A stretch of 64,000 nt of DNA from contig NZ_CP109479.1 of the NCBI RefSeq assembly GCF_036227485.1, forward strand, positions 7,316,001 through 7,380,000, read 5' to 3'. Below, piece after piece: positions 4,263 through 58,560 of the stretch. Below the pieces are notes generated by a model, which was not told the DNA's origin, made no database searches, and was given only the letters and a program-made list of their open reading frames with translations. Made by a program: the position numbers and the translations under genes. This DNA is from Streptomyces sp. NBC_01451. Its GTDB lineage: Bacteria; Actinomycetota; Actinomycetes; Streptomycetales; Streptomycetaceae. How positions within the stretch are numbered: position 1 is the stretch's first letter; each line of letters begins with the position of its first letter.

Positions 4263-4284
4263 AGTGTACGAGCCGTCGCTGACA
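4263..4284 (-). promoter_or_regulatory. RecA-NDp (PafBC-type) promoter of PASTA kinase
   Basis: On the minus strand: TGTCAGCG (4284-4277), 8 nt, then TACACT (4268-4263), then 7 nt to GTG 4255. This differs by one base from TGTCRGTG-N8-TANNNT, the damage-inducible promoter consensus known from mycobacteria and Streptomyces. Confidence 0.55.
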
Positions 4285-4439
4285 GGCCCGCAGTTTCGGC
4301 CAGGAAAGCACAGGAAAGCAGCGGGACTGAAGCCGACCTGTGACGCGGATCGCACCGGACGGCCGCCGACCGAGAGGAACCTCCACAGGAGTGCTGCACG
4401 TGTAATCGGGCTCGAAACGGGTGGTGCGTGGGTGGGAGA

Positions 4440-5267
4440 TCAGACGGGAGGGAAGAGGGAAGTGCCGGGTGCCTGGAAAGCGGGCCGCTCGGGATCCAGC
4501 TCGGCGAGCCCGGCGACAGGGGACGACGCTGCGGCAAAGTGCCGCCGGGGTATCCGACCCGCCCGGTATGCCAACCGGCCCGCTTTCACCCCGCTTCGCA
4601 TGGCGGCAGCCATCAGCACCGGCTCCTGCGCCCGCGTCACCGCCGACGCCAGCATCACCCCCGCGCACCCCAGCTCCATCGCCAGTGCCACATCCGACGC
4701 CGTCCCCGCTCCCGCGTCCAGAATCACCGGCACACGCGCGTGCTCCACGATCAGCTGGAAGTTGTGCGGGTTGCGGATCCCCAGCCCCGACCCGATCGGG
4801 GACCCGAGCGGCATGATCGCCGCGCACCCCACGTCCTCCAGCTTCCGCGCCAGCACGGGGTCGTCGTTCGTGTACGGCAGCACCGTGAACCCGTCCTCCA
4901 CCAGCACCTCCGCCGCGTCCAGCAACTCGATGGGGTCCGGCAGCAGCGTCCGCTCGTCGGCGATGACCTCCAGCTTCACCACGTCCGTACCGAGCGCCTC
5001 CCGGGCCAGCCGGGCCGTCAGCACGGCCTCACCGGCGGTGAAACACCCCGCCGTGTTGGGCAGCACCTGGATTCCGAGCCGCTCCAGCACCGACAGCACC
5101 GAGCCGTGCACCGAGGGGTCGACGCGCCGCATCGCGACCGTCGTCAGCTCCGTGCCGGAGGCCACCAGCGCCCGCTCCAGCACGTCGAGGCTGGGCGCAC
5201 CACCCGTACCCATGATCAGCCGGGACGTGAAGGTCGTACCGCCGAGGACAAAGGGATCGTCGGCCAT
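4440..5267 (-). CDS. thiG: thiazole synthase ThiG
   Basis: A 275-aa TIM-barrel enzyme that builds the thiazole phosphate of thiamin from DXP, dehydroglycine (from ThiO) and sulfur carried on ThiS. Seen: MGTGGAPS at the N-terminus, the Schiff-base lysine in DVVKLEV (Lys98), and the phosphate-binding GSPIGSG and DAGAGTASD loops. The C-terminal 20 residues or so are a loose extension beyond the usual roughly 255-265 aa. It starts 3 nt after the thiS stop and is the last gene of the thiO-thiS-thiG operon. Confidence 0.96.
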
Positions 5268-5270
5268 GGC

Positions 5271-5471
5271 TCAGCCTCCCTGGACGGCGGTGAGGACCTC
5301 TACGCGGTCGCCCTCGGAGAGGGAGGTCGACGACCACCGCGCGCGCGGGACGACGGTTTCGTTGAGCGCGGCGGCCACACCGGAGGGCGCCGGGGTGAGG
5401 GACTTCACCAGCGTGTCGAGCGCGGTGCCCGGGGAGACCTCGCGCCGCGCGCCGTTCACCAGGATGTTCAT
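5271..5471 (-). CDS. thiS: sulfur carrier protein ThiS
   Basis: A 66-aa ubiquitin-fold protein ending in the required Gly-Gly, whose C-terminus is adenylated and thiocarboxylated to donate sulfur to ThiG. It begins MNILVNGARR and ends EVLTAVQGG. Its start overlaps the thiO stop by 4 bp (ATGA), so the two are translationally coupled. Confidence 0.95.
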   Translation of the reverse strand: MNILVNGARREVSPGTALDTLVKSLTPAPSGVAAALNETVVPRARWSSTSLSEGDRVEVLTAVQGG

Positions 5472-56260: not shown

Positions 56261-56956
56261 TCAGGCGAAGGCGAGCGGGCTCGGGCGAGGCGGTCCTCGT
56301 CGTCCCAGGGAGTGCACGAGCAGGCGCGCGCGGAGGGCGGTGACGCGCTGAGCCGGCCGCGGCATGCGGCGTACCGCCGGGGCGGACCGGACCGTCACCG
56401 CGGCGGCGGCCAGCAGCAGCGGGCGGAAGGTGGAGGTGGTGAGCGCGTCCAGCAGCTGGGCCAGGGCCCGCTCGCCCCGGCGCAGCCAGGCGGCGGCCAG
56501 CAGCCCCACGCCGACATGCGCGCCCAGCAGCAGCCAGGCGGTCGACGGGCCGGCGTGGGCGAGCAGCGCCGCCACCCGGTCGGTGTCGGAGCCCGCCACC
56601 CGGGCCAGCGGGGTGCCCACGCCGTCGCCGGCGCACAGCACGTCGAAGCCGACCGAGCGCAGCGGCCCGGCGACCGGACCGCCCGCCCGGCCGTAACAGA
56701 CCGTCTGGCCGGTGGTGAAGACCGTGTCGGCGGCCAGCTCCAGCGGGATCAGCAGGGCCGCGATCCGGCCGAAGCCGCGCTCGCGGCCGGCCAGGGCGTA
56801 CGCGACGACGAAGACGGCGGCGGCGATCACGGCCACCGTCCCCATGGGCAGCGGGACCCTGGACAGCAGCACGTGCGACGCGCTGCTGAGCGTCACGACG
56901 AGTGCCGTGAACAGTGCCGCGCGTACGGCTCTGAGGTGGGTCCCGGATATGTCCAT
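56261..56956 (-). CDS. integral membrane protein of unknown function
   Basis: A 231-aa protein with about five hydrophobic helices (around 15-31, 37-56, 63-80, 131-158 and 180-192) and a basic, Pro-rich C-terminus. Two cysteines (TVCYGRAGG and VLCAGDGVG) lie in an extracytoplasmic loop and could form a disulfide or be a partner of the DsbA-like protein encoded 94 bp downstream. I do not recognise the family. ATG 56956. Confidence 0.65.
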   Translation of the reverse strand: MDISGTHLRAVRAALFTALVVTLSSASHVLLSRVPLPMGTVAVIAAAVFVVAYALAGRERGFGRIAALLIPLELAADTVFTTGQTVCYGRAGGPVAGPLRSVGFDVLCAGDGVGTPLARVAGSDTDRVAALLAHAGPSTAWLLLGAHVGVGLLAAAWLRRGERALAQLLDALTTSTFRPLLLAAAAVTVRSAPAVRRMPRPAQRVTALRARLLVHSLGRRGPPRPSPLAFA

Positions 56957-57060
56957 AGCGGAGGTGAGTGTGTCACGGACTCCTGTAAGAGGTCCCTAAA
57001 AGGTCCCTGTGAGCCTCTGCACTGTCGGAAGAGGTGTCCACGGGTGTGTCGTGCGGCCGG

Positions 57061-58386
57061 CTAGAGGCCCGGGATCCGGCCGTTGCGGAACAGGTCCACG
57101 AAGGTCTGGTGGTCGGCACGTGCGCGTGCGCCGTACTCGTGGGCGAAGTCCACCAGAAGGTCCGCGAAGCCCGTCTCGTCGGCCGCGATCACCGCGTCGA
57201 TGGCCCGCTCGGTGGAGAAGGGCACCAGGGACTCGCCGGACTGGTCGTCCGCCGCCGCGTGCATCGTGGCCGTCGCCCGGCCCAGGTCGGCGACGACGGC
57301 CGCGATCTCCTCCGGGTCGTCGATGTCGCCCCAGTCCAGGTCCACGGCGTACGGCGACACCTCGGCGACCAGCTGACCGCGGCCGTCCAGCTCGGTCCAG
57401 CCCAGCCACGGGTCGGCGTGGTCCTGGAGGGCGCGCTGCGAGATGACCGTGCGGTGGCCCTCGTGCTGGAAGTAGCCGCGGATCGCCGGGTCGGTGATGT
57501 GCCGGGAGACGGCCGGGGTCTGGGCCTGCTTGATGTAGATCACCACATCGTTCTCCAGGGCGTCCGTGGCGCCCTCCAGCAGGATGTTGTACGAGGGCAG
57601 CCCGGCCGAGCCGATACCGATGCCGCGACGGCCGACGACGTCCTTCACCCGGTACGAGTCGGGGCGGGTCAGGGACGACTCCGGGAGCGTCTCCAGATAG
57701 CCGTCGAAGGCGGCCAGGACCTTGTAGCGGGTTGCCGCGTCCAACTCGATGGAGCCGCCGCCGGGCGCGAAGCGGCGCTCGAAGTCGCGGATCTCCGTCA
57801 TCGAGTCGAGCAGCCCGAACCGGGTCAGCGAGCGCGCGTCGCGCAGCGCGTCCAGCAGCGGACCCTGGGCGGTGTCCAGGGTGAACGGCGGCACCTCGTC
57901 GCTCTTCGCGCCGGTCGCGAGGGCACGGATGCGCTCGCGGTACGCGCCCGCGTACGTCCGCACGAGGTCGGTGATCTGCTCGTCGGAGAGTGCCTTCGAG
58001 TACCCGATGAGGGCCAGGGAGGCGGCGAGGCGCTTCAGGTCCCAGGTGAAGGGCCCGACGTACGCCTCGTCGAAGTCGTTGACGTTGAAGATCAGCCGGC
58101 CCTCGGCGTCCATGTACGTGCCGAAGTTCTCCGCGTGCAGGTCGCCGTGGATCCACACGCGCGCGGTGCGGTCGTCCAGGTAGGGTCCGCCCCGCCGCTC
58201 CGCCTCCAGGTCGTGGTAGAAGAGGCACGCCGTACCCCGGTAGAACGCGAACGCGGAGGCCGCCATCTTGCGGAACTTCACGCGGAACGCGGCCGGATCG
58301 GCGGCCAGGAGCTCGCCGAACGCGGTGTCGAAGACGGTGAGGATCTCCTCGCCGCGGTGCTCGGCGCTGAGCTGCGGAACCGACAT
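57061..58386 (-). CDS. DUF2252 family protein
   Basis: A 441-aa protein. The family signatures are RFRKMAASAFAFYRGTACLFYHDL-like (KFRKMAASAFAFYRG), VWIHGDLHAENFGTYMDAEGRLIFNVNDFDEAYVGPFTWDLKRLAASL, and GRRGIGIGSAGLPSYNILLEG. The HGDLHAENFG and NDFDEA motifs resemble the catalytic loop and metal site of aminoglycoside-phosphotransferase or kinase-like folds, so it may be a small-molecule kinase; this is inference. ATG 58386 has GGAGGC 9 nt upstream. Divergent from dnaE. Confidence 0.88.
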   Translation of the reverse strand: MSVPQLSAEHRGEEILTVFDTAFGELLAADPAAFRVKFRKMAASAFAFYRGTACLFYHDLEAERRGGPYLDDRTARVWIHGDLHAENFGTYMDAEGRLIFNVNDFDEAYVGPFTWDLKRLAASLALIGYSKALSDEQITDLVRTYAGAYRERIRALATGAKSDEVPPFTLDTAQGPLLDALRDARSLTRFGLLDSMTEIRDFERRFAPGGGSIELDAATRYKVLAAFDGYLETLPESSLTRPDSYRVKDVVGRRGIGIGSAGLPSYNILLEGATDALENDVVIYIKQAQTPAVSRHITDPAIRGYFQHEGHRTVISQRALQDHADPWLGWTELDGRGQLVAEVSPYAVDLDWGDIDDPEEIAAVVADLGRATATMHAAADDQSGESLVPFSTERAIDAVIAADETGFADLLVDFAHEYGARARADHQTFVDLFRNGRIPGL

Positions 58387-58538
58387 CGCTTGGTGCCTCC
58401 TGGTGCAGGTGATGCAAGACGAATGGGGCCGGACGGGCCGACCGGGGAGACGAATGACTCCGTCGTCCCTCCAACGTCCGAGGGTATGCCGGAGTGCCCA
58501 CGACCCGCCCACGAAGGTACGGGGGAGACGCCTCCCGC

Positions 58539-58560
58539 TGTCAGTGCCGAGGCTTAGACT
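58539..58560 (+). promoter_or_regulatory. RecA-NDp (PafBC-type) promoter of dnaE
   Basis: TGTCAGTG (58539-58546), 8 nt, TAGACT (58555-58560): an exact match to TGTCRGTG-N8-TANNNT. Transcription would start near 58567, leaving a leader of about 110 nt before GTG 58677. Confidence 0.7.

Follow-up and report, generated by a model that had tools for sequence, protein, structure and literature searches.

In mycobacteria the regulator PafBC acts on sigma-A RNA polymerase at a promoter motif around position -26, with single-stranded DNA as its activator (PMC11804915), and promoters of this kind, known as RecA-NDp, follow Gamulin's consensus tTGTCRgtg-8nt-TannnT (PMC5656591). In Streptomyces, RecA-NDp promoters have been reported for recA and SCO6735 (PMC5087735, PMC9411070), that of SCO6735 being UV-inducible in S. 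coelicolor (PMC5087735). Separately, transcription start maps of S. lividans and S. avermitilis contain a class of promoters in which TGTC precedes TANNNT with a 12-nt spacer and which is enriched for replication, recombination and repair genes (PMC6742748, PMC8780764); TGTC lies about 26 nt from the mapped start in S. avermitilis (PMC8780764), and the S. lividans paper proposes the sigma factor SLIV_13900 (SCO4895) for the class (PMC6742748). A LexA-independent damage response in Streptomyces remains to be shown (PMC9380542). The subject of the present analysis is a set of six putative promoters in 64,000 nucleotides of Streptomyces sp. NBC_01451 (contig NZ_CP109479.1, positions 7,316,001 to 7,380,000; hereafter the window), together with the genome-wide class to which they belong.

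Each of the six sites consists of TGTCAGYG followed after exactly 8 nt by a -10 hexamer. All were recovered with the positions, strands and hexamers that an initial annotation of the window had assigned to them, against 0.41 expected in a 64-kb window (standard deviation 0.70), and six or more were reached in none of 100 dinucleotide-preserving shuffles of the window. All six TGTCAGYG octamers in the window have a -10 pattern at the 8-nt spacing, and none of the remaining 21 of the 27 TGTC[AG]G[TC]G octamers does. Every site lies upstream of a co-oriented gene according to our own gene caller (site 1 was judged by eye), which upholds the placement originally described. We estimate a probability of about 0.8 that the six sites are promoters of the RecA-NDp/PafBC type or of a close variant. 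The -26 element, the 8-nt spacing, the lack of a -35 hexamer, the presence of recA and repair genes among the targets and a PafB/PafC pair encoded in the genome favour this assignment, which the initial annotation had made for all six. Sites 1, 3 and 6 carry the TANNNT of the consensus; sites 2, 4 and 5 carry CANNNT and are classed here as a variant and not as members of the consensus.

Site 1 (4263..4284, minus strand) has the octamer TGTCAGCG at 4277-4284 and, after N8, the -10 TACACT at 4263-4268; the GTG start of a gene for a PASTA-domain Ser/Thr kinase (2300..4255, minus strand) lies 7 nt past the -10. The other five sites share the octamer TGTCAGTG. Site 2 (8466..8487, plus strand; octamer 8466-8473, N8 ending in TGG, CACGCT at 8482-8487) is followed at 6 nt by the GTG of a gene for an Rv2175c-like DNA-binding protein (8494..8865, plus strand), and site 3 (13373..13394, minus strand; octamer 13387-13394, N8, TAAAGT at 13373-13378) at 7 nt by the ATG of an amine-oxidase/CrtI-like gene (11857..13365, minus strand), a start read from the sequence where the caller gave 13350. 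Site 4 (18145..18166, plus strand; octamer 18145-18152, N8, CACGAT at 18161-18166) precedes a HEPN SAV_6107-like gene (18226..18762, plus strand) with a 59-nt leader. Site 5 (52867..52888, plus strand; octamer 52867-52874, N8 ending in TGG, CACGAT at 52883-52888) stands 6 nt before the ATG of a dienelactone-hydrolase-like gene (52895..53464, plus strand), and site 6 (58539..58560, plus strand; octamer 58539-58546, N8, TAGACT at 58555-58560) has 116 nt between its -10 and the called start of dnaE, encoding the DNA polymerase III alpha subunit (58677..62216, plus strand). Sites 1, 2, 3 and 5 look leaderless because a start codon lies 6-7 nt past the -10. Pfam matches bear out the names given to the PASTA kinase, the Rv2175c-like and HEPN SAV_6107-like proteins, the dienelactone hydrolase-like protein (DLH) and the polymerase subunit; the product behind site 3 matches the Pfam amine-oxidase family, but scores below the NCBIfam cut-off for the CrtI family.

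To describe these as promoters of one core-genome window was an understatement. In the whole genome (one contig of 10.27 Mb, 70.7 percent GC) the scan proposed in the initial annotation gave 301 matches to its pattern versus 38 for the reversed control, and a strict form, TGTCAGTG-N9-ANNNT, has 113 sites versus 6 reversed controls. With Y as the first -10 base, an 8-nt spacer was found 96 times (control 2) and spacers of 3 to 7 nt 8 times in sum (control 8); spacers of 9 to 15 nt occurred 0 to 3 times each among 110 octamers, taken from stretches originally chosen for the 8-nt spacer. One hundred of the 113 strict sites were examined further, 95 elsewhere in the genome and five in the window. 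Of these, 85 are intergenic and no more than 300 nt from the next gene, which is co-oriented; 10 fall inside a called gene, four of the 10 having a co-oriented start at 300 nt or less. ATG or GTG follows the -10 at 6 or 7 nt in 46 of the 100, other offsets from 0 to 34 accounting for 0 to 7 each, which suggests that many of these promoters are leaderless; in S. coelicolor leaderless mRNAs arise from about 21 percent of primary starts (PMC4895711). A match to TTGACA in at least 4 of 6 bases, 16-19 nt away, was present in 6 of 100 sites versus 9 of 100 at a control place, and the class, judged by its sequences, is one without a -35 hexamer.

The window, with five strict sites, is not unusual for this genome, because up to six per 64 kb occur elsewhere (p 0.19, rough simulation). 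On a larger scale, 14 strict sites, the window's five included, lie within 240 kb (G000:C1:7307303-7538804; p 0.0035, likewise from a rough simulation, in which the background is rough and the positions of 4 of the 113 sites are unknown). Two local arrangements were also seen: three tandem copies of TGTCAGTG before holB, 17 and 21 nt apart and with a -10 at the third only (locus L076, 4023-4082), and a methyltransferase gene preceded by a pair of complete sites 27 nt from each other (locus L105, 3993-4041), a pair present in another Streptomyces genome, G254, too.

Since TGTC plus AGTG plus 8 nt equals TGTC plus 12 nt, the orphan class of the Streptomyces start maps can be identified, by motif arithmetic and for the TA sites, with the RecA-NDp/PafBC promoter. 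Besides this arithmetic the two share the enrichment for repair and replication genes and, for S. avermitilis, the distance to the start. They differ in that those papers, in the parts available, give TANNNT only and suggest sigma factors; PafB is never mentioned in the S. avermitilis text (PMC8780764), nor PafBC in that of S. lividans (PMC6742748). The earlier RecA-NDp reports in Streptomyces concern the same type of promoter in the same genus, but for the single genes recA and SCO6735, where the present set is genome-wide and controlled. No literature joining the 12-nt TGTC class to PafBC was found in searches that mostly excluded subscription papers, and the 20 papers listed, out of 1,471, by a full-text search for the octamer were all unrelated.

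The motif also occurs beyond this genome. Across nine genomes of the same genus, this one among them, exact TGTCAGTG-N8-TANNNT has 13-57 matches per genome, compared with 0-5 in 16 further members of the class and 0-6 in the remaining 221 of the phylum sample. For the looser TGTCRGTG-N9-ANNNT, counts are above those of the reversed control in most of 197 genomes of the class and in all 20 of the same genus (74-200 versus 2-16), and at control level in several small genomes belonging to a single family. In 28 genomes of other genera, TGTCNGYG-N8-YANNNT was sought within 400 nt upstream of recA and dnaE: it stands before recA in 19 of 28 and before dnaE in 12 of 30 loci, 22 of these 31 motifs being TGTCGGTG, and reversed, 7-nt, 9-nt and complemented controls gave none for either gene. 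Within Streptomyces the promoter recurs in G254 before 14 genes in all (dnaE, dnaX, dnaN, holA, holB, polA, rpsF, recA, uvrA, uvrB, pcrA, radA, lhr and a topoisomerase gene) and in genome G252 before dnaE, dnaX, dnaN, polA and rpsF, a comparison that verifies which gene stands behind each site but is no unbiased survey, because the genes were chosen for look-alike site strings. Pairing sites of this genome (G000) with those of G254 by position and spacer similarity was rejected, 45 pairs scoring 6 or less versus 36 on the wrong strand, and was replaced by protein orthology for chosen genes.

The genome encodes a plausible reader of the element. Two of its eight WYL matches are adjacent to each other and correspond to PafB and PafC: for PafB the matching chains of solved PafBC complexes are 7p5x, 9fnd and 6sj9 (best E 5.9e-57), and for PafC 7p5x (8.3e-53). 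The helix-turn-helix stretch of PafB, SDDSFNRMFERDKDDLRELG, is nearly identical to SDEAFSRMFERDKNELRDLG of the M. smegmatis chain, and by our reading of PMC6789036 this stretch would hold the recognition helix. Behind pafB and pafC lie tatA and tatC (recognised by eye), and then a HelY-like DEAD/DSHCT helicase gene with a site before it. The Streptomyces promoters thus share with the mycobacterial PafBC promoter the octamer, the 8-nt spacing, the encoded regulator, TANNNT in 51 of the 100 sites, and recA, uvrA, lhr and radA as targets. They differ in that the other 49 have C, G or A as the first -10 base, mostly with TGN or an A at position 5, and in that a gene for each subunit of DNA polymerase III is targeted here, the mycobacterial side having been compared for dnaE alone, through the genomes of the class.

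The first -10 base over the 100 sites is T in 51, C in 36, G in 9 and A in 4, and the forms are distinguished by more than this base. An extended -10, TGN, in which N is the last spacer base, is found in 0 of 51 T, 14 of 36 C, 6 of 9 G and 4 of 4 A sites (p 8e-10, T versus the rest), and A at position 5 of the -10 in 2 of 51, 20 of 36, 2 of 9 and 1 of 4, respectively (T versus C, p 4e-8); the mutual information of position 5 is 0.303, the largest single-position value in 300 label shuffles being 0.194. At least one of these features (A5, or TG at one of two offsets) marks 4 of 51 T sites, 32 of 36 C sites, 7 of 9 G sites and all 4 A sites; the features were chosen after the logos had been inspected. 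The 93 sites of G254 gave 2 of 44, 31 of 35, 11 of 13 and 1 of 1, a partial replicate only, because many of them are orthologous to the first set. T sites start more often at +7 and C sites at +6, a weak effect (p 0.03).

The initial annotation took C in place of T to mark a weaker sub-class, which the comparison of orthologues does not support. The sample consisted of the best 80 loci for one window gene, all from Streptomyces, the nearest being 88-89 percent identical in protein sequence. At site 2, TGTCRG-N7-TGN-CANNNT is kept in 77 of 78 start regions and TA is found in none, the strict octamer being present in 59 of 78; at site 4, 66 of 69 eligible loci have a match, and every listed TGTCAGTG match there is CACGAT. 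Sites 1 and 3 are kept as TA. The start region of site 1, found in 74 of 80 loci, has TANNNT in 74 of 74, TGTCRG-N10-TANNNT in 59 and the strict motif in 34, most of the 25 loci with TGTCRG but without the octamer deviating at its eighth base and 15 loci having lost more. At site 3 the TGTCRGYG motif occurs in 60 of 70 eligible loci, all TA, and a relaxed form with the start ATG in 71 of 80. Site 6 is kept upstream of dnaE in G254 and G252, and no motif stands upstream of the site 5 orthologue in G254, the sole relative examined. A reading of the C as decay was rejected: the C is conserved and, being paired with TGN or A5, looks compensated, and the C-for-T sites are a genuine form of the promoter.

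These same differences would be expected if the non-TA sites were a separate class, served by a different factor that also uses the TGTCAGTG element, with PafBC still possible for the TA sites. The forms do differ in spacer, in -10 position 5 and weakly in start offset, and TA is the form of 11 of 12 repair genes (the HelY-like helicase included; p 0.004 versus the rest) and of 3 of 9 replication genes, on gene assignments that are our own and were tested post hoc. However, octamer, spacing and leaderless geometry are the same in both forms, and both are found before subunit genes of a single enzyme (TA at dnaE and dnaX, CA at dnaN and holB, GA at holA and the epsilon gene). We therefore regard a separate class as unlikely.

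The targets were surveyed in 90 annotated genes: 88 that lie downstream of one of the 100 sites at no more than 360 nt, plus those for the PASTA kinase and the HelY-like helicase; two open reading frames of at most 50 amino acids were omitted. By our own reading 20 of the 90 serve in replication, recombination or repair, a raw count rather than a measured enrichment. They include dnaE, the epsilon gene (NF005927, 327 bits versus a cut-off of 186), dnaN, dnaX, holA, holB, rpsF-ssb and polA, rpsF being counted on account of the ssb downstream. Also among the 20 are recA, lhr, pcrA/uvrD, uvrA, uvrB, ruvC, radA, xseA, an O6-methylguanine methyltransferase gene, a topoisomerase II A subunit gene that misses the gyrA cut-off, and genes for YoaA/DinG-like and RecD2-like helicases, both under curated cut-offs; ssb behind rpsF, and ruvA and ruvB behind ruvC, were recognised by eye from translations. 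The DNA polymerase III holoenzyme has six main subunits, alpha, epsilon, beta, tau, delta and delta prime, and each has a gene here with the promoter, in six places at least 248 kb apart. Outside these functions, immunity-type families (SUKH-1, SUKH-4 and Imm51) stand behind such promoters (loci L087, L088 and L089), as does, behind a TA site, a gene for a sigma factor resembling the extracytoplasmic function (ECF) type with a SnoaL/NTF2 domain (locus L056, 11065-12102).

That many of the targets are housekeeping replication genes might also be explained by an activator that does not respond to damage, by a different damage regulator (ClgR, for instance) or by promoters that simply follow growth rate, the resemblance to PafBC sites then being incidental; in M. 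smegmatis the P1 region of recA is reportedly recognised by ClgR (PMC5656591). Against this, the targets recA, uvrA, uvrB, ruvC and radA make up the classic damage set, the helix-turn-helix region of PafB is conserved, and the fixed phase to the -10 together with the missing -35 fits PafBC docking on polymerase, which makes an explanation of this kind very unlikely.

Several observations weigh against assigning the class to PafBC. Location alone discriminates weakly, because of 10 octamers lacking a -10 in the stretches examined, 5 likewise have a co-oriented gene no more than 300 nt downstream, two of these five being the extra copies before holB. Almost half of the examined sites (49 of 100) lack the T of TANNNT, and in other genera the motif is missing before recA in 9 of 28 and before dnaE in 18 of 30 loci. 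Nor can presence or absence link motif and regulator, because a PafB-like hit occurs in 194 of the 197 genomes of the class; a comparison of PafB occurrence with motif frequency was accordingly uninformative. A 2022 study of S. venezuelae LexA mentions an initial search that suggested a lack of conservation there for the PafBC motif of M. smegmatis (PMC9380542). Finally, the S. lividans paper finds the HrdB regulon of S. coelicolor to be without a 12-nt peak (PMC6742748). This absence, the tracking of DNA-repair genes under ciprofloxacin by SCO4895 expression (PMC6742748) and the ECF-like sigma gene at L056, possibly the orthologue of SCO4895, would suit the proposal that an ECF sigma factor reads TGTC-N12-TANNNT directly without PafBC, but we consider this highly improbable. 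Most often the -10 is the housekeeping TANNNT, and octamer and spacing match the PafBC element of mycobacteria, which works with sigma-A (PMC11804915); counts of the motif surpass those of its reversal in most of the 197 genomes of the class, and the sigma gene is equally well explained as a target.

A mechanism in which PafBC serves these promoters can be outlined from the mycobacterial work. Single-stranded DNA would bind the WYL domains of PafBC, which would then be placed between the -26 element TGTCRGYG and sigma domain 4, replacing, by sigma adaptation, the contact to a -35 hexamer that is lacking here, with a -10 of the sigma-A (HrdB) type 8 nt downstream of the element; transcription of repair and replisome genes would rise. 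In Streptomyces the -10 takes two forms, TANNNT and one with C, G or A as first base and mostly TGN upstream or A5, the second possibly keeping its strength through that other contact. By analogy with these relatives we infer that the class is damage-inducible, and it is on the same analogy that all six genes of the window may belong, as originally suggested, to one damage response. Because genes for the six polymerase III subunits, ssb, polA and recA stand in one class, the supply of the replisome would probably be tied to the single-strand-DNA signal. We go further only tentatively, with a proposal that may well prove wrong: that the replisome (the six polymerase III subunits, SSB, Pol I and RecA) is tied to the PafBC sensor and that the -10 form sets the degree of dependence, TA promoters requiring PafBC and being strongly inducible, as for repair genes, and extended or A5 non-TA promoters providing a basal level, as for replication genes. 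If this proposal is true, PafBC would be a running gauge of single-stranded DNA at the replication fork as well as a damage alarm.

The window has some further features. Downstream of the PASTA kinase gene, after a 34-nt gap, lies an nfo-like gene (1396-2265, minus strand), whose AP_endonuc_2 match agrees with its initial naming. The leader of the HEPN gene (18167-18226) contains an ACGGC-loop-GCCGT hairpin that recurs, with a variable loop, across many Streptomyces; another hairpin may form whose loop would contain the ribosome-binding site. Single-sequence folds differ in some orthologues. A TPP riboswitch at 6629-6741 (minus strand) lies upstream of a thiamine-type operon (DAO oxidoreductase, ThiG). 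Within the CrtI-like gene ARAGORN calls a tRNA-Ser(CGA) at 13197-13274 (minus strand), which is probably false because it is absent from the Rfam matches at gathering score.

To judge from our literature searches, recognising the orphan class of Streptomyces as PafBC promoters, with two -10 forms and the polymerase III holoenzyme as a target set, would be new. It would join three lines kept apart in the literature consulted: the 12-nt TGTC class, the mycobacterial PafBC element and the question of a LexA-independent response, which the S. venezuelae study leaves open (PMC9380542). It also provides a precise list of sites for a knockout test, and the two -10 forms amount to a testable promoter code. 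For the biology of Streptomyces, the set of targets suggests that the replisome itself, and not repair alone, is on a single-strand-DNA circuit.

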